64,000 nt of DNA from Microbacteriaceae bacterium (GCA_014378715.1 JACMNE010000056.1:1-64000), one strand, 5' to 3'. Shown: positions 2,165 to 58,069, numbered from the stretch's first letter. The notes: generated by a model not told the origin, from the letters alone. Made by a program: numbers and translations.

Positions 2165-2192
2165 GCCACGAGCGGATGTCGGCGACCCCACC

Positions 2193-4682
2193 TCATCGCC
2201 CCCAGTCGGCGACAAGCTGGTTGGCGGTCCGCAATACGCGAGTCGAGACCAGCTTGTCCGCAGCCAGGGTGCGGGTCGTCGCAACGTCGAAGGTGACAGA
2301 TTCGCCGGGAAGCAGGGTCACGAGCATGTCGGAGACGACCGCCTTCCGGTCGACCTTGTCGACGAGCAGGGCGATGTCGCGGACGAGGTTGTGCGCGGTG
2401 ACCGTCACGGAGTATCCGGCCGCGGTCGTGCGCACCTCGGTGTCGAGCTGCGCCGGCGCCAGTTCGGAGTCGCGGTACTCGGAGTAGAACCAGTGCGTCG
2501 TCTCGGCCCCGAGCGAGGCCACCAGGACCTCTCCTGCGACGTTGGACGCCGCGGCGACGACATCCGCTATCGGAACGACGAGGGTTGAGCGTGCCGGAAC
2601 GTCGACCAAGACGGTCTCGGAGGCGAGCTCCCCGCCGTCGAAGCGGCGACGCGCCAGCACGAGGGGTGCCGCCCAGTCCTCAGGCGAGTCGTTGACCACG
2701 ACGGTGACGAGCGCGCCGGCGTGGGGCTGGATCGTGAGCAGGCGGTCGGCGTAGACGTGCTTGAGCGCGTAGAGCAGCGGCTTCGCGGTGCCGTCACCGT
2801 CGACGGCCGACCACGAGGTGACCGGCCAGCAATCGTTCAGCTGCCAGACGACAGTCCCCATGTTCTTGGGCGAAAGGGAGCGCCAGTAGGAGATGCCCAC
2901 CGCGACGGCCGTCGCCTGGGTCAGCGACATCGCCCAGTGCCAGTCCTCGGTGTCGTCGGGCAGCGGCAGGTGCGCGACGAGACCGTCGGTGAGCTTGTCG
3001 TTGCCGTCCGCGGCCTTCTGGTGCAGCAGCATCCCCGGGGATTCCGGGGTGAGCGGATGATCGGAGATCGCGCGGGTGATGGTCGACCAGCTCGCCGGTC
3101 CCTGCCAGCCGAACTCGGCAACGAACCGCGGATCGACGTCGCGGTAGCCGGGGTAGTCCTCCCGGTTCCAGTGCTCCCAGAGGTGCACGGAGCCGTGCTC
3201 GACCGAGTTCGCGAAGACGGCCGGGTCGCCGGACCAGGGGCTGCCAGGAGTGTACGCGCGGGACGGGTCGAGCTCGGTGACAAGGTCCGGGAGGAGGTCG
3301 AGGTAGTAGCCGAGGCCCCAGGACTTGCCCTGCAGTCGCTTCTCCCAGCCCCACTCCTCGTAGCCCCAGATGTTCTCATTGTTGCCGTTCCAGAGCACGA
3401 GGCTCGAGTGGGGCATCAGGCGCTCCACGTTGTCGCGCACCTCCGCCTCGATCTCGCCCCGGAGAGGCTCCTCCTCCGAGTAGGAGGCGCAGGCGAAGAG
3501 AAAGTCCTGCCAGGTGAGGATCCCGCGCTCGTCGCAGAGGTCGAAGAAGTCGTCGGACTCGAACAGCCCACCACCCCAGACCCTGAGCAGGTTGATGTTC
3601 GCGAACTCGGCCTGGTCGAGCCGGTGTGCGTAGCGGGCGCGGTCGACCCGGTGGAAGAAGGCGTCGTCGGGGATCCAGTTGGCTCCGCGCGCCCAGACCG
3701 GCTGGCCGTTGACCACGAAGCGGAATGACGTGCCGTCGGCGTCGGGTTCGAGCTCGACGGCGACCGTGCGGAACCCGAGCCGGGCGGACCGGGTGTCTGT
3801 GGCCTGCGGGCCGCCGGCCGTGACTTCGAGCGCGTAGAGCGGCTGCTCGCCGAAGCCGCGCGGCCACCAGAGCTCGACATGGGGCACCTCGACGGTGAGT
3901 GTCGCCGAGGACTCCCCTGCTGGGACGGTGGCCGATGCCGCGGACCCCGCGATCGCGGCATCGAGGGCAACGGCGCCCCCCGCGACATCCGCTCTCTCGA
4001 TCTCGACCTCGATGGTCACGAGGCCCGACGCTCCCCCGGGGAGGACGGTCGCGGTCGGTCGGACACCGGACAGCCTGGCACCGGACCAGGCGTGCAGCGA
4101 CACGGGCTTCCAGATGCCGGAGGTGGCGACGTCGAGTCCCCAGTCCCAGCCGAAGTTGCAGGCGGCCTTGCGGATGGCGTTGTAGGGGTGCGTGTTGACG
4201 TGGGGGCGATATCCGAGCGCGAGGCTCTGCTCGTCGGCGTACTTGACCGGGGACGCGAAGTGCACGGTGAGCTCGTTGGCGCCGTCTCGCAGGTGCGCGT
4301 CGACCGCGACCCGGTAGGTGCGGTGCTGGTTGCGGGTGCTCGCGATCCACACCCCGTTGAGATGCACGGTCGCGACGGTGTCGAGCCCCTCGAAGACGAG
4401 GTCGTGCCTGTCCTCACCGTCCGGCGTCCACTCGAATCCCAGCGAGTACTCCCAGTCGGCTTGGCCGATCCAGGTGAGGAGCCTCTCGTTCTCGTCGAGG
4501 TACGGATCGGGGATCAGGCCGGCCGCCATCAGGTCGGTGTGCACGGTGCCCGGCACTGTCGCCGGAATGATGCTCTGTCGGATCTGGTCGGGCACGGCAC
4601 CGGCCGTTGTGCGAAGGGTCCACCCGGTGGTCAGGGGGCGGATGCCGGGGGAGCGGCGGATGTCGGGGGCGGAGAGGGTCAT
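2193..4682 (-). CDS. Glycoside hydrolase family 2 beta-mannosidase
   Basis: MTLSAPDIRRSPGIRPLTTGWTLRTT..., NLLRVWGGGLFESDDFFDLCDERGILTWQDFLFACA, WNGNNENIWGYEEWGW, FVAEFGWQGPASW: beta-mannosidase signatures; ATGA overlap with the upstream permease. Confidence 0.9.
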   Translation of the reverse strand: MTLSAPDIRRSPGIRPLTTGWTLRTTAGAVPDQIRQSIIPATVPGTVHTDLMAAGLIPDPYLDENERLLTWIGQADWEYSLGFEWTPDGEDRHDLVFEGLDTVATVHLNGVWIASTRNQHRTYRVAVDAHLRDGANELTVHFASPVKYADEQSLALGYRPHVNTHPYNAIRKAACNFGWDWGLDVATSGIWKPVSLHAWSGARLSGVRPTATVLPGGASGLVTIEVEIERADVAGGAVALDAAIAGSAASATVPAGESSATLTVEVPHVELWWPRGFGEQPLYALEVTAGGPQATDTRSARLGFRTVAVELEPDADGTSFRFVVNGQPVWARGANWIPDDAFFHRVDRARYAHRLDQAEFANINLLRVWGGGLFESDDFFDLCDERGILTWQDFLFACASYSEEEPLRGEIEAEVRDNVERLMPHSSLVLWNGNNENIWGYEEWGWEKRLQGKSWGLGYYLDLLPDLVTELDPSRAYTPGSPWSGDPAVFANSVEHGSVHLWEHWNREDYPGYRDVDPRFVAEFGWQGPASWSTITRAISDHPLTPESPGMLLHQKAADGNDKLTDGLVAHLPLPDDTEDWHWAMSLTQATAVAVGISYWRSLSPKNMGTVVWQLNDCWPVTSWSAVDGDGTAKPLLYALKHVYADRLLTIQPHAGALVTVVVNDSPEDWAAPLVLARRRFDGGELASETVLVDVPARSTLVVPIADVVAAASNVAGEVLVASLGAETTHWFYSEYRDSELAPAQLDTEVRTTAAGYSVTVTAHNLVRDIALLVDKVDRKAVVSDMLVTLLPGESVTFDVATTRTLAADKLVSTRVLRTANQLVADWGR

Positions 4683-5572
4683 TTGGTAGCTCCAGAGGTG
4701 AGTCCGTTGTAGATGAAGCGCTGCAGGAACAGAAACGCGACGAGGGTCGGGATGATGACGAGGAGTGTTCCGGCCGCGATGACCTCCCACTGGGCACCGA
4801 AGGGGCCCGTGAACCGGAAGAGGGAGGTGGAGATGACCCCAAGGTCGCGGGAGGGCATGTAGAGGAACGGGATGTAGAACTCGTTGTAGACCGCGATCCC
4901 CTTGATGATGACCACGGTCGCGATCGCGGGCTTGAGCAACGGCAGGATGATGCGCCAATAGATGGTCCAGCGGCTGGCGCCGTCGAGCATGGCCGCCTCG
5001 TCGAGCGACACCGGGATCGACTGCATGAACTGCAGGAAGATGTAGATCGCGATGATGTCGGTGCCCATGAACAGCAGTATCGCCGCACCGCGGGTGTTGA
5101 AGAGGTCGAGGGCGCTGATGACCTGGAACGTCGCGACCTGGGTCGTGACGGCCGGAACCAGCGTGGCAAGCAGGAACAGCCCGAGCACGAGCACCCGCCC
5201 GCGGAACCGGAACCGGTCGAGCGCGTACGCGGCCATCGTGCCGATCAGGATCGTTCCGGTGACAGAGACCACCAGGATGATCCCCGTGTTGAGGAAGCCC
5301 GTGATCATGCCGCCCTGGGTGAAGGCCGTCGCGAAGTTCTCCAGGTTGAACCAGTTGCCCGGGGCGTCGAGCGGCCCGGTGTCGCGGTACTCCTCGTTGG
5401 TCTTGAAGGCGAGCATCACGATGCTCACGATCGGCACGATGGCACACAGGCTCGCGAAGACGAGTGCGGTGTATTTGAGCAGGGTCCCGAGCCGGCTGGC
5501 CGGGCTGCGGGGCGAGCGGATGCGGCGACGGGCAGTGGTCTGGTCCACGGCGCGCTTCGTGGTGAGGGTCAT
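4679..5572 (-). CDS. Carbohydrate ABC transporter permease (MalG-like)
   Basis: MTLTTKRAVDQ..., six TM pattern, EAAMLDGASRWTIYWRIILPLLKPA EAA loop. Confidence 0.88.
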   Translation of the reverse strand: MTLTTKRAVDQTTARRRIRSPRSPASRLGTLLKYTALVFASLCAIVPIVSIVMLAFKTNEEYRDTGPLDAPGNWFNLENFATAFTQGGMITGFLNTGIILVVSVTGTILIGTMAAYALDRFRFRGRVLVLGLFLLATLVPAVTTQVATFQVISALDLFNTRGAAILLFMGTDIIAIYIFLQFMQSIPVSLDEAAMLDGASRWTIYWRIILPLLKPAIATVVIIKGIAVYNEFYIPFLYMPSRDLGVISTSLFRFTGPFGAQWEVIAAGTLLVIIPTLVAFLFLQRFIYNGLTSGATK

Positions 5573-6501
5573 ACCGTTCCTGCCTTCTCGTCGGCCTTCT
5601 CGTCGGGGAAGATCATCCGCTGCACCGCCGTGATGATGAGCACGATCGCGAGCAGCACCACGGCCATCGCCGAGGCGAGGCCGACCTTGGCGAACCGGAA
5701 CGCGGTGTCGACGGTCTGGATGACGAAGGTCTCCGAGCCGTTCGCGCCGCCGGTCATGATGTAGGGCATCTCGAACGCCGACAGGGCGCCGGCGATCGCG
5801 AGAATGAACGACAGGCCGAGGATGCGGCGGATGCTGGGCAGGATGATGAAGCGGAACTTGTGCCAGGAGTTCGCGCCGTCGATGTCGGCCGCCTCGTACT
5901 GCTCCTCGGGGACCGACTGGATAGCCCCGAGGAAGAGCACGAAGTTCAGTCCCATGTAGCGCCACACCGAGGTCGCGGCGAGCGAGCTGTTGACCACGGA
6001 GGAGTCGCCGAGCCACTGCGGGGTGTCGGAGACCCCGAGCGATCCGAGGATGGCGTCGAGGGTGCCGTCCGGGCGGAAGAAGTAGAGGAACATCAGCCCG
6101 ATCGCGACCCCGTTGATGAGGTAGGGGAAGAAGATGATGCCCTTGAACAGGTTGCGGAACCGGGTCTTGAAGCTCAGCAGCGTCGCGAAGAAGAGCGCGA
6201 GCACGAGCTGGGCGATCGCCCCGACCAGGTAGTAGAGGCTCACGAAGAAGACCTGGAAGATCTCGGGCCGGGTGATGATCTCGACGTAGTTGCCCAGTCC
6301 CACGAACTCCTTGTCGGGGTCGAGCCCGTCCCACGACGTGACGCTGTACCAGAACATGTTCGCGACGGGGATGTAGGTGAGCACGATGAGGAATGCGAGC
6401 GGCACGACCAGGAAGAGCCACGGCGTCATCCGCCCGCCGAAGATCCCTGCTCGCCTGCTGCCGCGGGCCGGGAGCTTCGGCGAGCGGATGACGGTGGTCA
6501 C
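5569..6501 (-). CDS. Carbohydrate ABC transporter permease (MalF-like)
   Basis: MTTVIRSPKLPARGSRRAG..., EQYEAADIDGANSWHKFRFIILPSIRR EAA loop; GTG start near 6501. Confidence 0.85.
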   Translation of the reverse strand: MTTVIRSPKLPARGSRRAGIFGGRMTPWLFLVVPLAFLIVLTYIPVANMFWYSVTSWDGLDPDKEFVGLGNYVEIITRPEIFQVFFVSLYYLVGAIAQLVLALFFATLLSFKTRFRNLFKGIIFFPYLINGVAIGLMFLYFFRPDGTLDAILGSLGVSDTPQWLGDSSVVNSSLAATSVWRYMGLNFVLFLGAIQSVPEEQYEAADIDGANSWHKFRFIILPSIRRILGLSFILAIAGALSAFEMPYIMTGGANGSETFVIQTVDTAFRFAKVGLASAMAVVLLAIVLIITAVQRMIFPDEKADEKAGTV

Positions 6502-6509
6502 AGTGATTC

Positions 6510-7880: not shown

Positions 7881-10676
7881 TCAGCTGGCGGTGCCGGTCA
7901 CCCGCCTCGGACGGGGGTGGCGCGTGCGGAGGCCTGCGCACACGGCGAGCAGGCCGAGCAGCATCAGGAGAACGGAGGCGGTGAGAGCTCCGCCGGCACC
8001 GGTGGTTCCGGTCGCCGCGAGGGAGTCGGCGCCGGACCCGGAAGGGGCCAGGGGGACGGCAGGTTCGAGCGGGGCGGGGTCTGTCGGGGCGGGGTCTGTC
8101 GGGGCGGGGACGGCCGCGAGCACTGTCTGGAGGTCGTCGACCACAAGGGTGCCAGAGCCGGCGCCGCCGAGGTAGAACGCGTGCTCGGTCACCGAGGAGA
8201 GGTTGAGGATCGCCTGCCCGGCCCACGGAGGGGTGGCGAAGTCGGCGAAGTCGAGCTCGACCTGCTGCCAGCCGCTCGTGGGCAGCACGGCGTTCGCCTC
8301 CCAGAATGCCCCGCTCGCCGCGAACTGCACGGAGAGGGTGTGCCCGGCGTCAGCGTCGACCCAGAACGTGAGTCCGGTGTAGCCCCACCAGTCCTGCGAC
8401 TGGGCAAGGGTGCGCACGATCCCCGCATAGCCCTCTCCGCCGAGGTCGTAGTCGAAGCGGGCGGCCGTTCCATCTGCTGCGCCAGACGACTCGACCAGTG
8501 TCGACACCACCGCGCCACCTCCGCTGTTGGGGACATAGGCGTCCGTGAGCCCCTGGTCGTCGGAATAGCCCTCGAAGTCGTCGATCACGAGGGGAGCGGT
8601 CGGCAGGTCAGCCGTTGAGAACTGGGCGGCCTGCGGCGTCGAGGCCATCGATCCCCCGCCATTGAGCGCCTCGACGCTCCAGTGGTGGACGGTGCCGGGA
8701 GCGAGGGTGAGGCCGGGGGCGAACTCGGTCGCGGTGATCCCTGTTCTCGTGATGAGCGGCTCGGAGAGGTCGGGGTGGAGCGACAGCGTGAAGCGGTAGA
8801 ACGCGGTCGCGTCGGCCGCCGTCCAGCTGAAGACGGGGGTGGAGCGCACACCGGTGGTACCGTCGGCTGGCAGTGCCAGGGCGAATGCGCCTGGCACGGC
8901 CACCGTGCCGCCCGCCGTGCCGCTCGAGATCGTGGCGCGGGAGACGGTGGTTCCGGTTGCCCACTCGAGGCGGAGGTGGTCGCCGGAGAGGCCCTCGGCG
9001 AGGAGCACGTGGCGTCCGTCACGGGTGGTGGTCGTTGTGCTGGATTCGACCCAGGTCAGTCCGTCCGCGCTGCTCGCGACCGACATTCCGTCGGCGTCTG
9101 CGACGAGGAACTCCGCGCGGGTGATCCCGCTGCGCTGCCAGCTGAGCCGGGAGGTCTGCCCGGCGACACCAGTGGCGAGAGCGCCAGAGGGGTCGGCCTC
9201 CAGGGTCACGTTCGAGTGGCCGGTGGTGAGAAGGAGGCTCTGCAGCGGGTCGACGAGAACACTCGACCGGCCAGTGGCCGTGACCGGGTCGGAGACCGAC
9301 TCTGTTGCGCCGCCGACCGCGAGGACCCGGTAGGTCGTTCCCGGCGCCGACACGAAGTCCGTCACGGGTGACGCGCCGGCCGACACGGGGCCAGCCACGT
9401 CGGTCCAGCCCGCGCCACCGGAACTCTGGACCGTGTAGCTGTCCGCTCCGGCCGTGCCGCGCCAGGAGATGCGGTTGATACCGTTCTCGCGGTCGACCAC
9501 GGTGACGAGGGGCGCCCCGAGGGCGGGGGAAGGCACGGCGTTCGAGCCGGCGATCGCATCGCCGTAGCCCACGATCGCGTCGACCTCGGCCCGGGACTGC
9601 GTGGTCTCGCCCGGGTAGTGCACGGTGAACCCGTCGTCGTGGGGCACGAAGCCGCCCCGGTCGTTGTTCGGGAACAGCGACCAGAAGAACATCCCGGAGA
9701 CGTCGGTGTTCGCTGCGAGAGGCTCGAGTAGGGCGGTCGTGGCCGCGGGCGAGCCGTACTCGCCCGCGAGGTAGACCTTGCGAGCTGCGACGACCAGGGC
9801 CGCGTCGGCGGAGACGCGGTCGATCGTCGGTGGGTAGTAGTGGGCGTCGACGATGTCGAGGCCTGGAGCGAGGAGTGCCGGCTGGCTGACCCCGAAACGG
9901 CCGCCAGCCGCGACGAGCTGGTCGGGCGCGAGGGAGCCGATCAGCGCGACCCGCGCGTTGATCCAGTCGAGGGTCATCCCCTCGAGCTCGTTACCGAGCT
10001 CCCACGCCAGGATCGTGGGGTCGTCGACGTAGCGCACCCCCGTGATCGCATTGGTGCGGCCGACGACGTACTCGATGTACTCGTCGAAGGCGGCGATCGC
10101 GGTGGGGTCGGTGTAGAAGTCGGCCGATGCGAGCCCGAGCGGGGTCGTGAAGTCGCGGTGGCCCCCGTGGTAGTACTGCCACTCGTCGGTCAGCGGGAGC
10201 AGGAGCCGGATGCCGACCGAGCCGGCGTAGGCGATCGCGAAGTCGATCGTGGCGAACGCCTCCTCGTTGTACTCACCGAGGCTCGGCATGATCGCCAGCG
10301 GATTCTCGTTGTCCTGTCCTGTCGAGGTCATCATGTGGGAACGCACGACCGTGACTCCCAGGTGCGATGCGGTGTCGAGGGCGTCCTTGATCCGGAAGAG
10401 GGTCGGGTAGTCGACGCCGCCGACGTTCTCGTCCAGGCCGAGCCAGTAGGCGTTGGCGCCGCTCATGCGGAAGTCCGTCCCGCCGAGGGTGAGCGACGAG
10501 CCGTCGCGTGCGACGAACTCCGTGTTGAGGGTGCTCCAGTCCTGGGGGGCGGCGACGGCGGATGCCGGCGCTGAGGCCGCGACCAGCATTGTCGCGGCAA
10601 GGGCGGTGGTGACCGCTGCCCCCGTCATCCGCTTCGATCGGGAGAAACGGGGTGCTGCCGAGAGCGAGTGGTTCAC
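7881..10676 (-). CDS. Secreted, cell-wall-anchored GH5-like endo-beta-mannanase, multidomain (FnIII-like, CBM11/CIA30-like, LAATG sorting signal)
   Basis: Signal peptide; ILAWELGNELEG and VYLAGEYGSP catalytic-type motifs; C-terminal PAPTDPAPTDPAP linker, LAATG, hydrophobic stretch, Arg tail; GTG start preceded by AGGAG. Confidence 0.82.
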   Translation of the reverse strand: MNHSLSAAPRFSRSKRMTGAAVTTALAATMLVAASAPASAVAAPQDWSTLNTEFVARDGSSLTLGGTDFRMSGANAYWLGLDENVGGVDYPTLFRIKDALDTASHLGVTVVRSHMMTSTGQDNENPLAIMPSLGEYNEEAFATIDFAIAYAGSVGIRLLLPLTDEWQYYHGGHRDFTTPLGLASADFYTDPTAIAAFDEYIEYVVGRTNAITGVRYVDDPTILAWELGNELEGMTLDWINARVALIGSLAPDQLVAAGGRFGVSQPALLAPGLDIVDAHYYPPTIDRVSADAALVVAARKVYLAGEYGSPAATTALLEPLAANTDVSGMFFWSLFPNNDRGGFVPHDDGFTVHYPGETTQSRAEVDAIVGYGDAIAGSNAVPSPALGAPLVTVVDRENGINRISWRGTAGADSYTVQSSGGAGWTDVAGPVSAGASPVTDFVSAPGTTYRVLAVGGATESVSDPVTATGRSSVLVDPLQSLLLTTGHSNVTLEADPSGALATGVAGQTSRLSWQRSGITRAEFLVADADGMSVASSADGLTWVESSTTTTTRDGRHVLLAEGLSGDHLRLEWATGTTVSRATISSGTAGGTVAVPGAFALALPADGTTGVRSTPVFSWTAADATAFYRFTLSLHPDLSEPLITRTGITATEFAPGLTLAPGTVHHWSVEALNGGGSMASTPQAAQFSTADLPTAPLVIDDFEGYSDDQGLTDAYVPNSGGGAVVSTLVESSGAADGTAARFDYDLGGEGYAGIVRTLAQSQDWWGYTGLTFWVDADAGHTLSVQFAASGAFWEANAVLPTSGWQQVELDFADFATPPWAGQAILNLSSVTEHAFYLGGAGSGTLVVDDLQTVLAAVPAPTDPAPTDPAPLEPAVPLAPSGSGADSLAATGTTGAGGALTASVLLMLLGLLAVCAGLRTRHPRPRRVTGTAS

Positions 10677-10777: not shown

Positions 10778-11641
10778 TTAGATAAATAATTTATGATTTG
10801 AAGTCGTGCCACGCGACACGATCGAGACACGGGGGGCCTCGACCGCCTTGAGCGCCGAGCCGTCGAACACCGCGAGGAGGGTGTCCCCGGTAAGGCGACC
10901 GATCGCCTGCACATCATGGCTCACCGCAGACAGGGGCGGGGTGGACAACTGGCACTGTGCCGAGTCGTCCCAGGCGAGAAGCGACAGGTGCGCGGGGACC
11001 GCGACGTCCGCGACATCCGCTGCCTCGAGTCCCCCGAGGGCCATCAGGTCGTTGTCGAAGATGATGGCGGTAGGGCGATCCGTACGCGAGAGGAGGTCGG
11101 CCGTCGCGCGGGATCCGGAGCCCTGCGAGTAGTCGCCGGCGAGTGTGGAGGACGCCGCGCCCGCCGCAGCGCACTCGGCCGCGAAGGCGTGCGCGCGGCT
11201 GAGGGTGTGGGCCATCCGGAGTGGGCCGGAGACGTGCGCGAGGCGCCGGTGGCCGAGGGAGAGGAGGAAGGCGACCGCATCTCGCATCGCGCCGTCGTCA
11301 TTGGTCCAGACGGCGGGGAACTCGGCGGCGATCGCGGGGTTGCCGACCACCACCACCGGCAGCTCGAGCTCGCGCAGCACGGGGAGGCGGGGGTCGTCGT
11401 GGGAAAGGTCGACGAGAACGATCGCTCCGACATCGCCCCCGGCCTTCCAACGCCGGAAGGTCGCGATCTCCTCCTCCACCGTCGGCAGGACCCGGGTGAG
11501 GACCGCGAAGCCGTGGGGCCGCAGGACGGACTCGAGCCCGGCGGAGAAGTCGTGGAAGTAGGGTTCGGCCCCCATGATCTCGGTCGCTCGCACCAGACTC
11601 ATCCCGACCATCCTGGCGGTCGGCGCGGTGCTCGCGCTCAC
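10778..11641 (-). CDS. LacI/GalR-type ligand-binding protein lacking the N-terminal HTH
   Basis: Begins MSASTAPTARMVGMSLVRATEIMGAEPYFHDFSAGLESVL, i.e. at the sugar-binding core; ends VSIVSRGTTSNHKLFI; no HTH-like peptide upstream. Confidence 0.75.
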   Translation of the reverse strand: MSASTAPTARMVGMSLVRATEIMGAEPYFHDFSAGLESVLRPHGFAVLTRVLPTVEEEIATFRRWKAGGDVGAIVLVDLSHDDPRLPVLRELELPVVVVGNPAIAAEFPAVWTNDDGAMRDAVAFLLSLGHRRLAHVSGPLRMAHTLSRAHAFAAECAAAGAASSTLAGDYSQGSGSRATADLLSRTDRPTAIIFDNDLMALGGLEAADVADVAVPAHLSLLAWDDSAQCQLSTPPLSAVSHDVQAIGRLTGDTLLAVFDGSALKAVEAPRVSIVSRGTTSNHKLFI

Positions 11642-16527: not shown

Positions 16528-16647
16528 GAGGATAATCCTTCCGGCTGTGGCGACTGGGTCCTCCTAGTGTGTCGCCGCGGAAGAATAAGATGAAGCGAGC
16601 ATTATCGACGCGTATACATCACATCAGCTTCATGATCGGGGCAGCGG

Positions 16648-38986: not shown

Positions 38987-40049
38987 AGGCGGAGTGGACC
39001 AGGGCGACGATGCGGGAGAGCACGTCGGGGTCGGTCTCCGGGGGAACGCCATGGCCGAGGTTGACGACGTGGGCCGGGGCCGCCCGGCCGCGCTCGACGA
39101 CGTCGAGTACGTGCGCCTCGAGCACCTCCCACGGGGCGGCCAGCAGCGCCGGGTTGATGTTGCCCTGCACCGGCACGTTGCCGCCGAGGCGGCGGATTCC
39201 CTCGTCGAGCGGGATGCGGTCGTCGATGCCGACGGCATCGGCACCGACGTCGCGCATCGCGCCGAGCAGCTCCCCGGTGCCGACTCCGAAGTGCACGATC
39301 GGCATACCCAGGTCTGTCACGTGCGAGATCGCAAGCTTCGAGTACGGCGCGACGTGGGCGGTGTAGTCGGCGAGCGACAGCGATCCAGCCCAGGAGTCGA
39401 ACAGCTGGGCCGCACTCGCCCCGGCGAGGATCTGCGCGCGGAGGAAGGCCCCGGTAACGTCGGCCGCCCAGGTCATCAGGGCGTGCCAGGTGGCCGGGTC
39501 CGCGTGCATCAGGGTGCGGGCGCGAAGGTGGTCCTTCGAGGGACCGCCCTCGACGAGGTACGCGGCCAGGGTGAACGGTGCCCCGGCGAACCCGATGAGC
39601 GGCGTCGAACCCAGCTGCGCGACGGTACGGGCGACGCCGGCACCGATCGGCGCGAGGGCGTCCGGGTGCAGCGGACGCAGCGCCGCGACATCCGCTGCGC
39701 TGCGGATCGGGGCGCCGAGAACAGGGCCGCGACCGGCGACGATGTCGACGTCGACCCCGGCGAGCTTGAGCGGCACCACGATGTCGCTGAAGAAGATCGC
39801 GGCATCGACCGCGTGCCGCCGCCACGGCTGCAGTGTGATCTCACTCGAGAGCTCCGGGTCGAGGCAGGCGTCGAGCATCGCCGTGCCGACCCGCAGGGCA
39901 CGGTACTCGGGCAGGGAACGGCCAGCCTGGCGCATGAACCAGACGGGGGTCACGGGCGGCCGATCGCCCCGATAGGCGCGGATAACGGGGGATGCGGCGG
40001 TGCGGCCGTCGACAAGCGGGTGTTCAGCTGGCAGGTTCACGTGGTTCAT
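38985..40049 (-). CDS. hemE: Uroporphyrinogen decarboxylase
   Basis: [51 protein letters not shown]. Confidence 0.95.
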
Positions 40050-45748: not shown

Positions 45749-47718
45749 CAGATCTGAACGCGCTGCTCGGGCGCCAGCCACAGGGCGTCCGATTCCGTCA
45801 CGCCGAAGGTGGTGTAGAACTCGTCGATGTTGCGCACGATCTGATTGCAGCGGAACTCGTTCGGGGAGTGCGGGTCGATCGTGAGCAGGCGGATGACCTC
45901 CTCGTCGCGTACCTTGATCTGCCAGGCCTGCGCCCAGGAGATGAAGAAGCGCTCGGCGCCGGTGAGTCCGTCGATCACGGGCGACTCGGCGCCATCGAGC
46001 GAGATGAGGTACGCCTTCCAGGCTATGCCGAGACCACCGAGGTCGCCGATGTTCTCGCCGATCGTGAGCGCCCCGTTGACGTGGTGGTCGGGCACCTGGG
46101 CCGGCGCGAGGGCGTTGTACTGCTCGATGAGTGAGGAGGTGAGCTTCTCGAACGCGGTGCGGTCGGACTCGGTCCACCAGTCGGTGAGCAGGCCGTCGCC
46201 GTCGAACTTGGCACCCTGGTCGTCGAAGCCGTGGCCGATCTCGTGCCCGATCACCGCGCCGATCGCGCCGTAGTTGGCCGCGTCGTCGCGCGCCTCGTCG
46301 AAGAAGGGGTACTGCAGGATCGCCGCGGGGAAGACGATCTCGTTGAAGCCGGGGTTGTAGTAGGCGTTGATCGTCTGCGGGGTCATGAACCACTCGTCGC
46401 GGTCGAGGGGAGCGCCGATCTTGCCCAGCTCGCGCTGGAACTCGAACTCGTTCGCGGACCGCACGTTGCCGAGCAGGTCTCCGGCGTCGACCTGCAGGGC
46501 CGAGTAGTCACGCCACTTCGCCGGGAAGCCGATCTTGGGCGTGAACTTGTCGAGTTTGTCGAGCGCGCGGAGCCGGGTGGCCTCGGTCATCCAGCCGAGC
46601 GAGGTGATGCTCGCCCGGTAGGCCTCGATGAGGTTGGCGACGAGCACGTCCATCTCACTCTTCGCGGTCGGCGAGAAGTGGCGGTCGACATAGGTGCGCC
46701 CGACGGCCTCGCCCAACGCGCCCTCGACGAGCGAGACGCCGCGCTTCCAGCGGACCCGCATCTCCGGGGTGCCGGTGAGGGTGCGGCCGTAGAAGTCGAA
46801 GTTGGCCTCGACGAAGTCGTCGGAGAGGTAGGCGGCGTTCGAGCGGATGACCTGCCACGCGAGCCAGTCCGTCCAGCTCTCGAGCCGGTCGGCCGTCAGT
46901 AGCCCGGCGACGTGTTCCACGAAGCTCGGCTCGCGCACCACGACCTCGGCGAGCGCGCCCTCCGGCACGTCCACCGCGTCGAGCCATACGTCGAGGTCGA
47001 TGCCTGCGGCGAGCGCCTGCGCTCCCGACCAGGGCAGCAGGTTGTAGGTGGCCTCGCTGTCGCGGGTGCGCACGTTGTCCCAATGGCCGGCCGCGATGTC
47101 GGTCTCGAGCGCGACGACCCGCGCGGCACGCTCGGCCGCATCGGGGCGCCCCGGCTCGGCGAGCGCGAACATCCGCTCGACGAAGGCGCCGTACTTGACC
47201 CGCACCTCGGCGAAGGAATCCTCGCGATAGTAGGACTCGTCAGGCAGGCCGAGGCCGCCCTGCTCGACGAAGACAAGGTAGCGGTCGGGCTGGCCCGGGT
47301 CGTTGTCGACGAAGAGGTGCAGGAAACCCGAGATGCCCTTGCGTTCGAGGCGCCCGAGCCTCTCCAGCAGCGAGCGGATGTCGGTGGCACCGGCCACCTC
47401 GGCCAGGAGCGGCGCGAGCGGCGCGGCGCCGAGCGCGTTGACGCGGTCGTTGTCCATGAAGCTCGCATAGAGGTCGCCGTACTTGCGCTCCTCGCTGCCG
47501 GGCTCGGCGGACTGCGACTCGATGATGATGTCCTGCACGGCCTTCTCGGCCGCCTCGGCGAGCAGGTAGAAGGAGCCGTAGCGGGCCTTGTCCGAGGGGA
47601 TCTCTGTGCGCGCGGCCCATTTGCCGTTCACATGGCGGAAGAGGTCGTCTCCCGGACGGGTCGCGGCATCGAGCTCCGCGAGGTCGATTCCGGACGTGGG
47701 CTGGTTGTCGGCGCTCAT
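45745..47718 (-). CDS. M13 family zinc metallopeptidase (neprilysin-like)
   Basis: GAVIGHEIGHGFDDQGAKFDGDG; NAYYNPGFNEIVFPAAILQYPFF. Confidence 0.93.
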   Translation of the reverse strand: MSADNQPTSGIDLAELDAATRPGDDLFRHVNGKWAARTEIPSDKARYGSFYLLAEAAEKAVQDIIIESQSAEPGSEERKYGDLYASFMDNDRVNALGAAPLAPLLAEVAGATDIRSLLERLGRLERKGISGFLHLFVDNDPGQPDRYLVFVEQGGLGLPDESYYREDSFAEVRVKYGAFVERMFALAEPGRPDAAERAARVVALETDIAAGHWDNVRTRDSEATYNLLPWSGAQALAAGIDLDVWLDAVDVPEGALAEVVVREPSFVEHVAGLLTADRLESWTDWLAWQVIRSNAAYLSDDFVEANFDFYGRTLTGTPEMRVRWKRGVSLVEGALGEAVGRTYVDRHFSPTAKSEMDVLVANLIEAYRASITSLGWMTEATRLRALDKLDKFTPKIGFPAKWRDYSALQVDAGDLLGNVRSANEFEFQRELGKIGAPLDRDEWFMTPQTINAYYNPGFNEIVFPAAILQYPFFDEARDDAANYGAIGAVIGHEIGHGFDDQGAKFDGDGLLTDWWTESDRTAFEKLTSSLIEQYNALAPAQVPDHHVNGALTIGENIGDLGGLGIAWKAYLISLDGAESPVIDGLTGAERFFISWAQAWQIKVRDEEVIRLLTIDPHSPNEFRCNQIVRNIDEFYTTFGVTESDALWLAPEQRVQIW

Positions 47719-47778: not shown

Positions 47779-49107
47779 ATGGGGAGATTCGCGGTCCGGC
47801 CGCTCGATCGGGAGATCTTCCGCCTGGCCATCCCAGCGCTCGGCGCCCTTGTGGCCGAGCCGCTGTTCCTGCTCACCGACACCGCGCTCGTCGGCCACCT
47901 CGGGGCCGTGCCGCTCGCGGCCCTCGGCATCGCCGGGGTGATCCTGCAGACGGCCGTCGGCCTGCTCGTGTTCCTCGCCTACGCGACGACGCCCGCCGTG
48001 GCCAGGCGCCTCGGCTCCGGCGACCTGCCCGGCGCGATCAGGGCCGGCATCGACGGCCTCTGGCTCGCGATCGCCGTCGGCGTCGTGCTCGTCGGCGGCG
48101 GGCTGGCCGGCGGCGGGGCGCTCGTCCGGTTGTTCGGTGCCCCGGCGGATGTCGCGGAGGCCGCCACGACCTACCTGCTCATCTCGGTCTGGGGGCTGCC
48201 AGCGATGCTAGTGGTGCTCGCCGCAACGGGCCTCCTGCGCGGGCTGCAGGACACCCGCACCCCGCTTGTGGTCGCCGTGCTCGGCTTCGTCGCGAACGCC
48301 CTGCTCAACACCCTGTTCATCTACGGCTTCGGCTGGGGCATCGCCGGCTCGGCCGTGGGCACCGTGGTCGCCCAGTGGGGCATGGCAACGGTGTACCTCG
48401 TGATCGCGGTACGCGCGGCGCGGGCGAACGGCACCACTCTGCGACCGGGGCTCTCCGGCGTCGCCGGGGCAGCGTCGTCCGGCCTGTGGCTGCTGCTGCG
48501 CACGGCGTCGCTGCGCGTCGCGCTGCTCGGCACCGTGGTGGTCGCGACCGGGCTCGGCGTGACGGAGCTCGCCACCCTGCAGATCGCGCTCACCCTGTTC
48601 TCGGCGATCGCCTTCGCCCTCGACGCGCTCGCGATCGCCGGCCAGGCGATGATCGGCCACGCGCTGGGGGCGGCGGACGTTCCGAGGGTGGTCGCGGTCA
48701 CCCGCCGGCTCATCCTGTTCGGGGTGGTCGGTGGCGTGGGCCTCGGGGCCGTGCTGGCGCTCGTCGCCCCCCTGCTCGGCGGGGTGTTCACGGGGGACGC
48801 CGACATCCGCTCTGCCCTGACACCTGTCGTCATCGTGATGGCGCTGGGGATCCCGGTCGCGGGATACGTCTTTGTGCTCGACGGGGTGCTGATCGGCGCG
48901 GGCGACGCCAGGTACCTGGCGATCACCGGGATCGTGAACCTCGCGGTGTACGTGCCGCTGCTCGCGGTTGCCACCTCCGCAGGAGGCATCGTGGCCCTCT
49001 GGACGGCGTTCGGGTTCGGCTACATCGGCGCCAGGGCGGTCACGCTCGGGCTGCGGGCGCGGGGCACCGCATGGATCGTGACGGGCGCGGAACGTACCGC
49101 CCGGTAG
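47779..49107 (+). CDS. MATE family efflux transporter
   Basis: REIFRLAIPALGALVAEPLFLLTDTALVGHLG; 12 TM pattern. Confidence 0.92.
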   Translation: MGRFAVRPLDREIFRLAIPALGALVAEPLFLLTDTALVGHLGAVPLAALGIAGVILQTAVGLLVFLAYATTPAVARRLGSGDLPGAIRAGIDGLWLAIAVGVVLVGGGLAGGGALVRLFGAPADVAEAATTYLLISVWGLPAMLVVLAATGLLRGLQDTRTPLVVAVLGFVANALLNTLFIYGFGWGIAGSAVGTVVAQWGMATVYLVIAVRAARANGTTLRPGLSGVAGAASSGLWLLLRTASLRVALLGTVVVATGLGVTELATLQIALTLFSAIAFALDALAIAGQAMIGHALGAADVPRVVAVTRRLILFGVVGGVGLGAVLALVAPLLGGVFTGDADIRSALTPVVIVMALGIPVAGYVFVLDGVLIGAGDARYLAITGIVNLAVYVPLLAVATSAGGIVALWTAFGFGYIGARAVTLGLRARGTAWIVTGAERTAR

Positions 49108-49116: not shown

Positions 49117-50334
49117 ATGACGAACTCCGTGCTGCACTCGCGCGCCCAGTTGAGCGCCTGGCGCAACTCCCTGTTCGTGGTCTTCGCCCTCTGCGGGGCG
49201 GGCCTGGCGAGCTGGGCGGCGCGGGTTCCCGCCGTCGCCGCCTCCCTCGACCTGACCTCCGCGGATGTCGGGCTCCTGCTGTTCGGCATCGCGGCCGGCT
49301 CGATCGTGGGGCTGCTCCTGTCGAGCCACCTCATCGCGATGTTCGGCGCCAGGAACGTCATCCGCTTCGCGCTGGTGATCGGCCCGGTGGGGCTCGTGGT
49401 CGCCGCGGTCGGGGCGAGTGTGGTGACGAGCTTCGGGGTCGCATTCACCGGGCTCGCGATCGTCGGTGCGGCGCTCGGCGCCTGCGACGTCTCAATGAAC
49501 GTCTCGGGGGCGGCCAACGAGCGCGCGATCGGCCGCAACATCATGCCGATCTACCACGCGTTCTTCAGCATCGGCACGATCGTGGGCGCGGGGCTCGCCG
49601 CGATCGCGGAGCACTTCGAGATCCCGCTCGAGTACCACCTCGGCGCGATCGGCGCCCTCACCGTGCTGGCTTCGATCGTGGTCGTGCGGTTCCTGCTGCC
49701 CGAGACCGTGATCGAGCCGGAGGAGGCGGAGCCAGGACCCGCGGACACCTGGCGCACCCGGCTGTCGATCTGGCGCGACCCGCGCACGATCTTCATCGGG
49801 CTCATCGTGCTCGGCATGGCGTTCACCGAGGGCTCGGCGAACGACTGGCTCGCCTACGCGATGGTCGAGGGGCACAACACCGATAAGCCGACCGGCGCGC
49901 TCGTCTTCGGGGTCTTCGTCACCGCCATGACCATCGGCCGACTCGGCGGCGTGAGGCTGCTCGACCGCTTCGGGCGTGTTCCCGTGCTGCGGGTCTCGGC
50001 CGCGCTCGCCTTCACCGGGCTCCTGGTGCTCATCTTCGTCCCCATCGTCTGGCTCGCCGTCGTGGGGGTCGTGCTCTGGGGCCTCGGAGCCGCTCTCGGC
50101 TTCCCGGTCGGGATGTCCGCCGCCGCGGACGACCCCCGCACCGCCGCCGCCCGGGTCAGCGCGGTCGCCACGATCGGCTATGTCGCGTTCCTCGTCGGCC
50201 CCCCGGTGATCGGATTCCTCGGCGAGCACGTCGGAATCCTCAACGCACTGCTGCTGGTGCTGGTGCTGGTCGCCCTCGCCGGCGCACTGTCGCAGTCCGC
50301 GCGGGAGCCCCGCGGCACGAAGGTAGGGTCGTAG
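49117..50334 (+). CDS. MFS transporter
   Basis: 12 TM pattern; [40 protein letters not shown]. Confidence 0.87.
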
Positions 50335-50336
50335 GA

Positions 50337-51032
50337 ATGCGTCTCGTCATTGCCCGGTGCTCCGTGGACTACGCCGGTCGGCTCAGCGCCCACCTGCCCC
50401 TCGCCACCCGCCTCCTCCTGCTCAAGGCCGACGGCAGCGTGCTCGTCCACAGCGACTCGCTGAGCTACAAACCGCTCAACTGGATGAGCCCGCCGTGCAC
50501 CATCACCTTCCCCGAGGTCGTGGCCGAGGCCCTCGAGGTCGGCGTCACCGAGACGTGGAAGGTCACCCAGGCGAAGACCTCCGACCTGCTCGTCATCTCG
50601 ATCCACGAGATCCTGCACGACTCGGCGCACGAGCTCGGCATCGACCCCGGCCTGCAGAAGGACGGCGTCGAGGCGCACCTGCAGAAGCTGCTCGCCGAGC
50701 AGATCGACGTGCTCGGCGACGGCTACCGGCTGGTGCGGCGCGAGTACATGACGGCGATCGGGCCGGTCGACATCCTCGCGACGGACGCGACCGGAGCCTC
50801 GGTGGCGATCGAGATCAAGCGCCGCGGCGACATCGACGGCGTGGAGCAGCTGACCCGTTACCTTGAGCTGATGAATCGCGATCCGCGCCTGGCGCCGGTC
50901 GCCGGGGTCTTCGCAGCCCAGGAGATCAAACCGCAGGCCCGCACGTTGGCGCTGGACCGCGGCATCCGCTGTGTCACGCTCGACTACGACGCGATGCGCG
51001 GCCTCGACGACAGCGACTCCCGCCTGTTCTGA
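50337..51032 (+). CDS. nucS: Endonuclease NucS
   Basis: [57 protein letters not shown] nuclease motif. Confidence 0.93.
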
Positions 51033-51104: not shown

Positions 51105-51764
51105 ATGACGAATCCCCCGTGGACCTGCATCCTCTTCGACCTTGACGGCACGATCACCGACTCGGCGCCCGGTATCACCTCGAGCCTCGCCTGGATGTTC
51201 GAGCGTCTGGGCCTGCCTGTCCCCGGCACGGCCGAGCTCCTCGCCTACGTCGGCCCGCCCCTGCTCGACTCGTTCCGCGACTTCGCTGGCTTCGACGAGA
51301 AGGAGTCCTGGGACGCCCTCAACCTCTACCGCACCCACTACCTCGACCGCGGCCTCTACGACAGCACCGTCTACCACGGCATCCCCGAGGTGCTCGCGGC
51401 TGTCGCGGCGAGCAGCCTGCCCATGAGCCTCGCCACGTCCAAGCCGGAGACCCCCGCGAACCTCATCCTCACCCACTTCGACCTCGCCAGGCACTTCGAC
51501 GTGATCGCTGGGGCCTCCGATGACGAGTCCCGGAGCGCGAAAGCGGATGTCGTCGCCGACGCCCTCCGACGTCTCGAGCACGCCGGAGCCGACATCTCCC
51601 GCCCGGTGCTGGTCGGCGACCGGGAGCACGACGTGGAGGGTGCCGCCGCGAACGGGGTTCCGACCATCTTCGTCGAGTGGGGCTACGGGGCCGAGCACGA
51701 GAAGGCCGGATCGCACTCGGTCGCGCGCACGGCCGGCGAGCTGCCAGGGCTGCTACTGGGCTGA
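51105..51764 (+). CDS. HAD family hydrolase (phosphoglycolate phosphatase-like)
   Basis: CILFDLDGTITDSAPGITSSL; VLVGDREHDVEGAAANGVPTIFVEWGYG. Confidence 0.88.
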   Translation: MTNPPWTCILFDLDGTITDSAPGITSSLAWMFERLGLPVPGTAELLAYVGPPLLDSFRDFAGFDEKESWDALNLYRTHYLDRGLYDSTVYHGIPEVLAAVAASSLPMSLATSKPETPANLILTHFDLARHFDVIAGASDDESRSAKADVVADALRRLEHAGADISRPVLVGDREHDVEGAAANGVPTIFVEWGYGAEHEKAGSHSVARTAGELPGLLLG

Positions 51765-51771
51765 ACCGCGC

Positions 51772-53330: not shown

Positions 53331-54388
53331 CGCAGGAGCACGAGCTCGGCGGAGACACCGGGTCCGAGCGCGAAGAGGACCGTCAGATCATCCGCTTCAT
53401 GAACGGACTCGGTCATCGAATCGGCGAGGATGTGCAGAACGGATGCGGAGGACAGGTTGCCGACTGTGGCGAGGGAGCGCCAGCTGATGTCGAGGGCGCC
53501 GTCGGGCAGCTCGAGGCTCTCGGAGAACGCCTCGAGCACCCGGGGACCGCCCGGGTGGGCGACCCAGCGATCGATCTGGCCGATCTCGAGGTCGTTGTCG
53601 GCGAGGAACTGCTCGACATCGCCGCCGAAGTGACGCTCCACGACGTCGCCGACGCGGGCGGTGAGCACGATGCGGAATCCGGTCTCGCTGGCATTGAAGC
53701 CGATGACGTCCTCGGTGTCGGGGTAGAGCCTGCTGCGGGTGTCCACGACGTCGGGGCCGGTCACGATCATCCGCTTCGCCCGCTCGTCGCCGACCATGAT
53801 GACGGAGGCCGCGCCGTCGCCGAACAGGCCCGACGCGACGAGGTTCGCCATCGAGTCGTCGTCCCGCTGGAAGGTGAGGGAGCACAGCTCGACCGAGATG
53901 AGCGCCGCGACACCCTCGGGGTGCCCGGCGAGGTAGTCGGCAACCCTGGCGATGCCCGCGGCGCCGGCGACACAGCCCAGCCCGTACATCGGCACGCGTT
54001 TGACGTCGGAGCGGAGGCCGAGCCGGGCCACCAGGAGCGCGTCGATCGACGGGGCCGAGATGCCGGTCACCGAGGTGAACATGACGTAGTCGATGTCGCC
54101 GGGCTCGAGTCCCGAGCTGAGAAGTGCCGCCCGCAGCGACTCCTCGGCGAGGTCGGCGGCGACCTCAATGAACATGCCGTTCGACTGGGAGAAGGTCTGC
54201 GGGTCGAGGTACCCCTCGAGCGGCATCACGAGGTGGCGGGTGTCGACCCGGCTGGAGGCGTGCAGGCGGTCGAGGAGGGCGCGTTTGCCGGTGTTCGTCG
54301 TGATCAGCGGACCGATCGTCGCCGTGATCTCCGACTGCGGATACACGAAGGCCGGGAGCGCGGGGGCGACAGCGACGATTCGGGCCAT
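53318..54388 (-). CDS. Type III polyketide synthase (chalcone synthase family)
   Basis: Thiolase fold with Cys (YGLGCVAGAAG), His (WVAHPGGPRVLEAF) and Asn (TVGNLSSASV). Confidence 0.9.
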   Translation of the reverse strand: MARIVAVAPALPAFVYPQSEITATIGPLITTNTGKRALLDRLHASSRVDTRHLVMPLEGYLDPQTFSQSNGMFIEVAADLAEESLRAALLSSGLEPGDIDYVMFTSVTGISAPSIDALLVARLGLRSDVKRVPMYGLGCVAGAAGIARVADYLAGHPEGVAALISVELCSLTFQRDDDSMANLVASGLFGDGAASVIMVGDERAKRMIVTGPDVVDTRSRLYPDTEDVIGFNASETGFRIVLTARVGDVVERHFGGDVEQFLADNDLEIGQIDRWVAHPGGPRVLEAFSESLELPDGALDISWRSLATVGNLSSASVLHILADSMTESVHEADDLTVLFALGPGVSAELVLLRWPS

Positions 54389-54515
54389 GAGGGACGCTAA
54401 CACGCCCGATCGGGCTCGGACACAACATCCGCTCTCCCTGGGAGATGGTTGACTTGCCCGCCTGCCGGACCGAGCATATGCATCGGAGAACCCACCGCCA
54501 CGATCGGAGAACAGC

Positions 54516-55897: not shown

Positions 55898-55908
55898 CCC
55901 GCTTTTGG

Positions 55909-56146
55909 TCATTATTCAGGGGTTCGGCGTGCCCGGCCGTCTGCGGTCCCGCCATCATTCAGGAGTGAGCGACGCCGCTAAACGATATTGTGCGTCAGAT
56001 GAGTGGATATGACCGATTCTGTCGTCATATCACCGACGAACGCACGATTTCGGCGTGAGACTGCACCGCCACATCCGCTGGTCCTGAATGATGAACGGGG
56101 GCAACGGGCCGAACTCCTGAATGATGACGTGACCAGCGGATGTCGC
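55909..56146. repeat. Nested inverted-repeat region with four copies of a CATCATTCAGGA-like word and an inverted pair of the abundant AGCGGATGT word
   Basis: TCATTATTCAGGGGTTCGGC (55909) vs minus-strand TCATCATTCAGGAGTTCGGC (~56109-56128); CCGCCACATCCGCTGGTC vs GACCAGCGGATGTCGCGG (one mismatch). Confidence 0.8.
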
Positions 56147-56597
56147 GGCTGGGATTGAGCGGATGAACTCCACTTGCAGGGCGTTGAACTCGTCGGGCCG
56201 GTCGCAGTTCAGGGTGTGGCCGGCCCCCTCGACGATGGCGCTGCGTCCGAGCGGGTTGGCCGCTGCCGGACGCCGCGTGCTCGCACGACCAGAGCTGGCT
56301 CTCCCGCCCGGCGACGAACAGGTCGGGCACCTCGACCCGGTCGATCACGTCGCGCCAGTCCTGAACGGCGTGGCCGTGCAGCAGGTGGATCGTCTCCGAC
56401 GCCGCGGGTCGCGCGTGCGGCCGATCCGCTCGACGAGCCGGAGTATTCCGGGCATCGACCCCTCCTGCGGGAGGCCGCGGCCGGTCGGCGGGATGCCCGC
56501 GGCCAAGAAGGCGTGCTCCCCCGACGCGTCGTAGCCGGAGAAGCCGAACCGCCAGTCGTCGGAGCAGTGGAGGGTGACACCGTCATTCGTGCTGTGG
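56147..56597 (-). pseudogene. Degraded alpha/beta-hydrolase-like gene (at least two frameshifts, N-terminus missing)
   Basis: Minus-strand peptides in three successive frames: VTLHCSDDWRFGFSGYDASGEHAFLAAGIP...MPGILRLVERIGRTRDP | ETIHLLHGHAVQDWRDVIDRVEVPDLFVAGRESQLWSCEHAA | ANPLGRSAIVEGAGHTLNCDRPDEFNALQVEFIRSIP. Confidence 0.8.
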
Positions 56598-56614
56598 CTG
56601 GGCTTGGGGACCCC

Positions 56615-58069
56615 CTAGGTGCGGGTGAGCGGGGCGGCCGGGAAGGCCTTGCCGGGATTGAGGGTGCCCGCGGGGTCGAGCGCCGCCTTGATCGAGCGAT
56701 GCAGGTCGACGACGCGCGGGCCGAGCTCGGTCGCAGCGCCCGGCAGCTTGAGCAGTCCGACGCCGTGCTCCCCTGAGACCGTGCCGCCGAGGGCCAGGCA
56801 GTTCGCGATGATCTCCTCGAAGGCGATCCTCGCCCGCTCCTTGGCCGCCGGGTCGTCCTCGGGCGCGATGATGAGCGGATGCAGGTTGCCGTCGCCCGCG
56901 TGGGCGATGTTGGCGATCACGACGTCGTGGGAAGCCGCGGACGCCTGGATCCGCGCCAGCATTTCGGGCACCTGCCCGCGGGGCACACAGATGTCCTCGG
57001 TGAGCACGGGCCCGAGCCGTTCAAGTGCGGGGTAGGCGAGGCGGCGGGTGAGGAACAACCGGTCCACATCGGCCTTCTCGGTGGCGCGCTCCACGCGCGA
57101 GCCGCCGGCCGCGGCGAAGATCGCGGCGATCTCGTCAGCCGACTCGTCGCCGGCCTCCCCACGCTCGTCGACCTTCGCGAGGAGGAGGGTGTTCACCTGC
57201 GCCGGGTCGACGCCGTCGGGCAGGCCGAGCCCCTGCCAGGCCTCCACCGCGGCGATACAGGTGCTGTCGATGAGCTCGAGCGCGGCCGGAACGATGCCCG
57301 CACGGGACACGGCCGCGACCGCGTCGCCCGCGGCCACAAGCGAGGGGAAGTAGCCGATGACGGCGCGCTCCTCCCGCCCGGCGAGCGGGAGCAGACGAAC
57401 AGTGACCTCGGTGATGATGCCGAGGGTGCCCTCCGAGCCGACCATGAGGCCGGTGAGGTCGTATCCGGTGACGCCTTTGGCTGTGCGGTGACCGAGCCGC
57501 ACCACGCTCGCGTCGGCGAGCACCACTGTCAGGCCCAGCACGTAGTCGCGTGTCACTCCGTACTTCACACAGCAGATGCCGCCTGCGTTGGTCGCCGCGT
57601 TGCCGCCGATGCTCGAGATGGCCGAGCTCGCGGGGTCGGGCGGGTACCAGAGCCCGCTCTTCGCGACCTCGGCCCGGAGGGTGTCGTTGATCACGCCGGC
57701 CTGGGCCACCGCAAGCCGCTCGTCCGTATCGACCTCGAGGATCGCCGACATCCGCTCGAGGGAGACGACGATGCAGTTCGCCACGCTGTTCGCTCCCCCC
57801 GAGAGGCCGGTGCCGGCTCCCCTCGGCACCACGCGGATGCCGCGGTCGGCGGCGAAGCGCACGGCCGTGACGACATCCCCGGTCGACTCGGCGAACACCA
57901 CGGCGATCGGCGGCTCGTACGCGGCCCACTCCGCGTCGTCGTGGCTGTGCGTGGCGAGGGTCGGCGCATCGGTGGCGGCCTGGCCCGCCGCGAAGAGGCG
58001 GGTCAGCGCGGACACGAGGTCGGTCGCGGACGGGTCGGTCGATCGCTCGGTCGAGACGGACGTTGTCAT
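56615..58069 (-). CDS. FAD-binding oxidase (glycolate oxidase GlcD / D-lactate dehydrogenase-like)
   Basis: VVPRGAGTGLSGGANSVANCIVVSLERM; SGEHGVGLLKLPG; C-terminal AALDPAGTLNPGKAF. Confidence 0.9.
   Translation of the reverse strand: MTTSVSTERSTDPSATDLVSALTRLFAAGQAATDAPTLATHSHDDAEWAAYEPPIAVVFAESTGDVVTAVRFAADRGIRVVPRGAGTGLSGGANSVANCIVVSLERMSAILEVDTDERLAVAQAGVINDTLRAEVAKSGLWYPPDPASSAISSIGGNAATNAGGICCVKYGVTRDYVLGLTVVLADASVVRLGHRTAKGVTGYDLTGLMVGSEGTLGIITEVTVRLLPLAGREERAVIGYFPSLVAAGDAVAAVSRAGIVPAALELIDSTCIAAVEAWQGLGLPDGVDPAQVNTLLLAKVDERGEAGDESADEIAAIFAAAGGSRVERATEKADVDRLFLTRRLAYPALERLGPVLTEDICVPRGQVPEMLARIQASAASHDVVIANIAHAGDGNLHPLIIAPEDDPAAKERARIAFEEIIANCLALGGTVSGEHGVGLLKLPGAATELGPRVVDLHRSIKAALDPAGTLNPGKAFPAAPLTRT

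Follow-up and report, generated by a model that had tools for sequence, protein, structure and literature searches.

A frequent, non-polar DNA word with dialects in Microbacteriaceae as a candidate DNA uptake sequence

Sequence-biased uptake of DNA has been described for two Gram-negative families only, the Pasteurellaceae and the Neisseriaceae (PMC7811141; open-access literature). Haemophilus influenzae carries 1,465 cores of its uptake signal sequence (USS) and Neisseria meningitidis 1,892 copies of its DNA uptake sequence (DUS), as quoted in PMC7811141, and the DUS of Neisseriaceae is known in several dialects (Frye et al. 2013, PMC3630211). USS is scarcer in coding sequence and in DNA of recent acquisition (PMC7811141), and, according to Maughan et al. 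2010 as cited in PMC7811141, biased uptake with recombination could by molecular drive alone let such a word accumulate. Here we describe a short word that recurs throughout a 64 kb stretch of DNA (the window; JACMNE010000056.1:1-64000) from a bacterium whose genome falls in the Microbacteriaceae by its LepA loci, and we propose that the word may serve as a species-specific signal for natural transformation. A first-pass annotation of the window had drawn attention to it.

The window contains 31 perfect copies of GCGGATGTCG (17 on the plus strand and 14 on the minus strand), exactly the number reported in that annotation, where dinucleotide shuffles average 0.75 and never exceed 4; all of the copies had been located correctly except two that were off by one (17777 and 38141). 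Its further estimates, about 13 copies of a 12-mer expected well below once and many single-mismatch copies, agree with our counts: AGCGGATGTCGC occurs 13 times where an order-4 Markov model expects 0.10, and if a single mismatch is allowed the count rises to 33, where 1.3 are expected. Across the whole genome (3.0 Mb in 187 contigs, 94% complete), GCGGATGTCG occurs 907 times, 448 and 459 by strand, and the word read backwards, which is our control for genome-wide counts, 11 times (6 and 5); this control is not codon-matched, and modest ratios elsewhere, such as 60 versus 12 in other families, are not taken as enrichment. When k-mers are counted de novo over about 362 kb of the same genome, the sample also used for the codon shuffles below, AGCGGATG ranks first among 8-mers (274 observed, 32 expected under the order-4 Markov model) and AGCGGATGTCGC first among 12-mers (59 versus 0.56). 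In the whole genome the core AGCGGATG is found 2,070 times, about once per 1.45 kb, which is comparable to the numbers of USS in H. influenzae and DUS in N. meningitidis and supports an uptake function.

Mismatches to the 12-mer are unevenly placed along it. Substitutions at positions 1-7 are scarce (14 sites in total), while substituted forms at positions 8-11, in the 3' part, are still 18- to 32-fold enriched, and because of this difference the motif is a rigid core, AGCGGATG, followed by a soft, degenerate tail, (T>C>A)CG(C>G)GG, with the consensus AGCGGATGTCGCGG. The over-representation first reported is real, while the motif differs slightly from the one proposed, and because the core is AGCGGATG with a degenerate tail the original list of copies misses many real sites (e.g. 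AGCGGATGCC and AGCGGATGAT). The core differs from its own reverse complement, and an asymmetric word of 8-14 bp in at least about 1,000 copies, far above composition-matched expectation, is what DUS and USS also present. The HIP1 element of cyanobacteria is likewise a very abundant, genome-wide word of octamer scale; unlike the word described here, which is asymmetric and has dialects, it is a palindrome, GCGATCGC.

The word contains the codons GAT and GTC, and 91% of the DNA examined is coding (genes were called with our own simple codon-statistics caller and are uncurated), as would suit an origin in codon or amino-acid bias. Synonymous shuffling of each predicted gene argues otherwise: within coding sequences (CDS), AGCGGATG is observed 234 times against 36.4 after shuffling (maximum 45), GCGGATGTCG 105 times against 14.4 and AGCGGATGTCGC 46 times against 0.9, so that the excess is gone once synonymous codons are exchanged. 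The core is read in all six frames, 114 times in the sense and 120 times in the antisense direction of the gene, and is denser in intergenic than in coding DNA (1.155 versus 0.708 per kb, p = 0.009), in keeping with the initial view that it is not a protein motif. Its relative rarity in coding and constrained sequence, the flanks of word sites being marginally less conserved (0.775 versus 0.799), is a trait shared with DUS and USS. A dispersed repeat or inserted element might also scatter a word across a genome, but no repeat is common to the flanks of the word, and alignments of homologous sites in relatives are gap-free, showing substitutions and no signs of insertion. Shuffling, frames and strands rule out a codon or protein-motif origin, the unconserved flanks and gap-free alignments rule out a repeat or insertion, and we accord these sources together a negligible probability.

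The word shows no strand bias per contig in its own genome (chi2 13.5 on 19 degrees of freedom), where 75% co-orientation in the same contigs would have given a chi2 of about 83 (5th percentile 60). This benchmark is that of Chi in E. coli, about 75% of which lies in one orientation. Around the complete 3.80 Mb chromosome of a relative, G021, sampled at 19 places, 114 forward and 128 reverse copies likewise reveal no bias (chi2 14.5 on 19 degrees of freedom); the only skewed place among the 19 (L045, G021:C1:1300001-1320000) has 7 forward and 20 reverse copies. Occurrence in both orientations without replichore polarity is also seen for DUS and USS. Other bacteria do use short, abundant, genome-wide words as chromosome-segregation signals, namely the FtsK orienting polar sequences (KOPS) and SpoIIIE recognition sequences (SRS) read by FtsK or SpoIIIE, but these are strictly polar, and the absent polarity refutes such a role, which was already doubted at first pass and which we consider extremely improbable.

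The same data bear on a Chi-like hotspot, at which a helicase-nuclease of the AdnAB or AddAB type would read the word during break repair and start recombination. Like the Chi of RecBCD and AddAB, the word is short, asymmetric and spread genome-wide, with a rigid 8-bp core, and Chi words also vary among clades (PMC8022716, which treats Chi evolution in Proteobacteria). RecC (PF04257), however, was matched in 0 of the 200 Microbacteriaceae genomes of our family survey, E. coli being the sole control matched, and the strand counts reveal no bias, local or towards the leading strand, in the word's own genome or around G021; neither of the two marks of a RecBCD-type Chi, the presence of RecBCD and a replication-linked orientation bias, was thus found, and the word is denser than Chi. 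AdnAB is not known to respond to Chi. The strand tests reject a leading-strand Chi, the RecBCD type put forward at first pass is unlikely given the missing RecC, and a Chi-like function in general seems to us unlikely.

Self-marking, as by a restriction-modification system or another self/non-self mark that favours the word since its modified form protects, would act in both orientations, and the core GGATG matches a known type IIS recognition sequence, that of FokI. Restriction, however, usually leads to avoidance of its site, and here enrichment runs from 8-fold for the core to about 100-fold for the 12-mer; the motif moreover reaches about 14 bp and shifts by dialect, and a methylation mark alone would not explain the enrichment. 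We regard this explanation as very unlikely.

Comparison across related genera, proposed at first pass, reveals spelling variants of the word. Five congeners of the window's genome have just 210-437 copies of AGCGGATG each and are rich in a related word, CGGATGYCKCGG, with 149 copies in G376 (reversed word 1), 170 in G436 (4) and 88 in G486 (2). Many of the 200 family genomes, from many genera, show an excess of CGGATGYCKCGG, and its highest counts are those of two genomes of one genus, G054 (1,611; reversed 7) and G021 (845; reversed 5). That genus is probably Agromyces, judging by 81% identity to Agromyces mediolanus versus about 75% to others; the small, AT-richer family members in this survey have essentially zero copies. 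De novo counts at 20 kb LepA loci from named species independently rank words with a GGATGC core among the leading 8-mers of Agreia, Herbiconiux, Agromyces mediolanus and several Microbacterium species; beyond the family, such counts at sampled loci of Arthrobacter, Cellulomonas and further Micrococcales returned no GGATG word. Within the Agromyces-like genus, a single base separates a T-dialect, CGGATGCCTCGG (G021 and G238), from a G-dialect, CGGATGCCGCGG (G054 and G193): T:G counts per 100 kb sample are 34:19 and 59:9 in the former pair and 8:59 and 9:25 in the latter (the last in 62 kb).

At homologous sites of G021 and G054, the A and T of GGATG are identical in 33% and 27% of cases, against about 80% for the flanks of these gap-free alignments, and positions of G021 words often hold a non-word in G054. 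Between the window's genome and G376, only 38% of 34 sites agree in the A at position 0 that marks the dialect, in a region of 80% identity, and several sites of the genome's own word carry the family-type word in G376 (e.g. AGCGGATGTCGCGG to GGCGGATGTCGCGG at 39683). Because homologous sites align without gaps and yet differ in core letters, the words arise by base substitution in place, with a local spelling that varies between lineages. DUS and USS likewise originate by point mutation, not insertion, and likewise form dialects in which related species keep a common core.

Dialects also bear on the possibility that the word is the binding site of an abundant chromosomal protein, such as a nucleoid-organising, condensation or other non-polar architectural factor. 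Such a protein could well use thousands of non-polar sites, and a shift in dialect could track the evolution of its DNA-binding domain; the word is, however, missing or replaced in congeners and sister genera with the same housekeeping needs, and quick dialect turnover is more typical of self-recognition systems. Architectural sites in such numbers are usually far more degenerate. We consider this role quite unlikely.

A related word occurs in a second family. GTATGCCG is the top de novo 8-mer at Tetrasphaera, Terrabacter and Arsenicicoccus loci (L131, L134, L140 and L142), and among 297 genomes of the order a single family, f18, is rich in it, with about 1,100-3,300 copies in enriched members, in both orientations (3,277 in G277, reversed control 276; 2,982 in G150, control 59); the remaining genera of f18 and every other family of the order are at background. 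Judged by the named loci, f18 is most likely Dermatophilaceae/Intrasporangiaceae, and GTATGCCG is likely a sister uptake-like word. It is a single letter apart from GGATGCCG, which suggests a common origin of the two.

Density, occurrence in both orientations, a rigid core with a soft flank, origin by point mutation, relative avoidance of coding and constrained sequence and dialects in relatives all match USS and DUS, and for these reasons we favour, as the more probable explanation, a role of the word as DNA uptake sequence of its species, by which DNA of the cell's own kind would be recognised in natural transformation; this was also the first candidate of the first-pass annotation, and it fits best. 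We infer an uptake function, a receptor and molecular drive as the cause of the accumulation. In the proposed mechanism, the competence/pilus apparatus would include a DNA receptor on the cell surface that binds AGCGGATG(T)CGCGG in either orientation and favours uptake of word-bearing DNA; as such fragments are taken up and recombined into homologous sites time after time, the word would accumulate by point mutation where coding tolerates it; and as receptor specificity drifted the genome's word would follow, giving rise to dialects around a conserved core.

Competence machinery, which accompanies DUS and USS, is present in the window's genome, which encodes ComEA (HHH_3, SLBB) and ComEC in the gene order ComEA-ComEC-HolA together with a PilB-like ATPase copy of excellent score. 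In the actinobacterium Micrococcus luteus, Tad/Flp pili are needed for transformation and make up its machinery together with ComEA/EC, and the study that describes this expects other Actinobacteria to behave alike (PMC4322843). T2SSE-type pilus ATPases occur in 199 of the 200 family genomes; G021 and G054 have weaker matches only, which would fit a Tad type if the scores distinguish PilB from Tad as we suppose. Presence of competence and pilus genes is permissive, not discriminating. PilB-bearing family genomes have a higher median word count (72.5 versus 30, Mann-Whitney p = 0.013), a difference confounded by phylogeny; given this, and with the two richest Agromyces-like genomes lacking PilB, PilB was dropped as a predictor of the word, as was the uninformative ComEC.

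Several results weigh against an uptake function. ComEC, present in 196 of the 200 family genomes, fails to separate word-rich from word-poor members, and the most word-rich Agromyces-like genomes (G021 and G054) have no PilB-type type IV pilus ATPase. The word is not spaced more evenly than random (coefficient of variation of gaps 1.16 in the 362 kb), and its density does not differ between window DNA that is alignable and not alignable to a congener, so that the contrast between core and accessory DNA proposed at first pass yields no difference within the window.

Likeness to the known systems extends to detail. As in Neisseriaceae, a very abundant asymmetric 10-12-mer lies in both orientations, related species change one or two letters of it while an invariant core stays the same (CTG in DUS; GGATG, or ATGCC across families, here), and some family members have no obvious word; as in the USS of H. 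influenzae, a rigid core is joined to a softer flank at about 1,500-2,200 copies per genome and evolves by point mutation, not insertion (PMC7811141). The sequences themselves are unrelated, USS being AT-flanked, and the host here is a Gram-positive actinobacterium, unlike the Gram-negative hosts of USS with their outer-membrane uptake step. The DUS is bound by ComP, a minor pilin of type IV pili, and because the word-richest Agromyces-like relatives lack PilB, a receptor of this kind cannot be general here. In the 362 kb, inverted word pairs less than 50 bp apart are not in excess (8 versus 10.6 expected), and a role as terminators was rejected. Some Neisseria DUS do form inverted pairs that act in this way. 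Since preferential uptake is the defining trait of the class, we do not file this word, identified by sequence analysis, as a DUS or USS, although it would work like one.

More broadly, there is in our judgement about an even chance that Gram-positive Actinobacteria have an uptake-sequence system in two families of one order, with words built on a common ATGCC core (GGATGCC in Microbacteriaceae, GTATGCCG in Dermatophilaceae) that evolve into dialects at the species level and find their receptor in a Tad/Com uptake machine, which is not known to discriminate by sequence. Searches of the open-access literature returned no relevant mention of the words or dialects, subscription papers and preprints lying outside the search, and the word is provisionally regarded as novel. 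If the proposal is true, Gram-positive bacteria of soil and plants would add a third case, independent of the other two, and genomic uptake passwords would have arisen more than once; the word would provide a handle on the receptor used in Tad-based competence, allow natural transformability to be predicted among actinobacteria, and open a practical way to transform laboratory isolates by adding a species' own word to donor DNA. The dialects inside one cultivable genus make the idea directly testable.

In the window, the full consensus AGCGGATGTCGCGG lies within CDS at 3980..3993 (-), 11008..11021 (-), 17903..17916 (+) and 39683..39696 (-), in intergenic DNA at 56135..56148 (+), and further at 37588..37601 (-), 37895..37908 (+) and 38167..38180 (-). 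The homologous G376 site is GGCGGATGTCGCGG for the copies at 17903 and 39683 and GGCGGATGCCGGGG for that at 38167. GGCGGATGTCGCGG itself is found within CDS at 26290..26303 (+), 31792..31805 (-) and, in a MATE efflux gene, 48144..48157 (+).

Other extended forms within CDS are AGCGGATGTCGTCG (2555..2568, -; 51542..51555, +), GGCGGATGTCGGGG (4655..4668, +), AGCGGATGACGCGG (15868..15881, +), AGCGGATGTCGCGC (17181..17194, -; 21168..21181, +), GGCGGATGTCGAGG (17774..17787, -), AGCGGATGCCGCGT (18580..18593, -), AGCGGATGTCGCCG (18830..18843, +; 21503..21516, -), AGCGGATGCCGCCC (23583..23596, -), GGCGGATGTCGCTC in a phosphoketolase gene (24772..24785, -), CGCGGATGTCGACG (33968..33981, +), GGCGGATGTCGCAG (34853..34866, +), AGCGGATGTCGTGG (40805..40818, -; GCCGGATGCCGCGG in G376), AGCGGATGTCGCGT (41372..41385, +), AGCGGATGTCGGTG (47373..47386, +), CGCGGATGTCGGGC (49260..49273, +) and AGCGGATGCCGCGG (50957..50970, -; the same 14-mer in G376). 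AGCGGATGTCGGCG lies in intergenic DNA or at a gene edge at 2171..2184 (+) and within CDS at 48798..48811 (-) and 57743..57756 (-), GGCGGATGTCGGGA (32557..32570, +) and AGCGGATGTGGCGG (56066..56079, -) are intergenic, and GGCGGATGTCGTCC is at 38140..38153 (+).

Sites with the core AGCGGATG fall within CDS on the plus strand at 3052..3065, 5515..5528, 6483..6496, 14949..14962, 26229..26242, 28009..28022, 30099..30112, 30471..30484, 31315..31328, 46842..46855 (PepO-like peptidase), 56874..56887 and 63716..63729, and on the minus strand at 5608..5621, 14316..14329 (PutA-like), 17422..17435, 22748..22761, 47164..47177, 49353..49366, 53383..53396 and 53762..53775. Gene edges carry it at 10620..10633 (-) and 16643..16656 (+), and intergenic DNA at 28626..28639 (-), 54420..54433 (-) and 56158..56171 (+).

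Elsewhere in the same genome, two contigs picked post hoc are poor in the word: L018 (C60) has 2 cores versus 9.1 expected and L019 (C100) 1 versus 7.5. The former has two giant open reading frames of 1,240 and 2,281 aa, whose scanned stretches are without a Pfam match; the latter has a lower GC (0.659) and glycosyltransferase, asparagine synthase and MFS genes, an island of surface-polysaccharide type.

Other dispersed sequences were noticed in the family. G401, a complete 3.33 Mb Microbacteriaceae genome without the GGATG word, over-represents another non-polar word, AGGAGGCGCGG (L252-L255), possibly another dialect or an unrelated repeat, and has 22 copies of AGGAGGCGCG in 80 kb where 1.4 are expected; Rathayibacter loci likewise show CGGAGTCG. 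The palindrome GCACGTGC is among the top 8-mers in several Microbacteriaceae loci (Rathayibacter, Cryobacterium and others; L072 and L076). A second dispersed sequence, CTTTCATCATTCAGGAGT (reverse ACTCCTGAATGATGAAAG), which resembles either a dispersed repeat or a regulatory element under conservation, has about 20 copies in 320 kb of G376 (L026-L030, L196-L199 and L205-L210) and is weaker in the window's genome, for example around window position 56116. In G457 (L240-L243), GACAGGCTCA / TGAGCCTGTCGA, likely an extragenic repeat, occurs in 8-9 copies in 80 kb where about 0.1 are expected.

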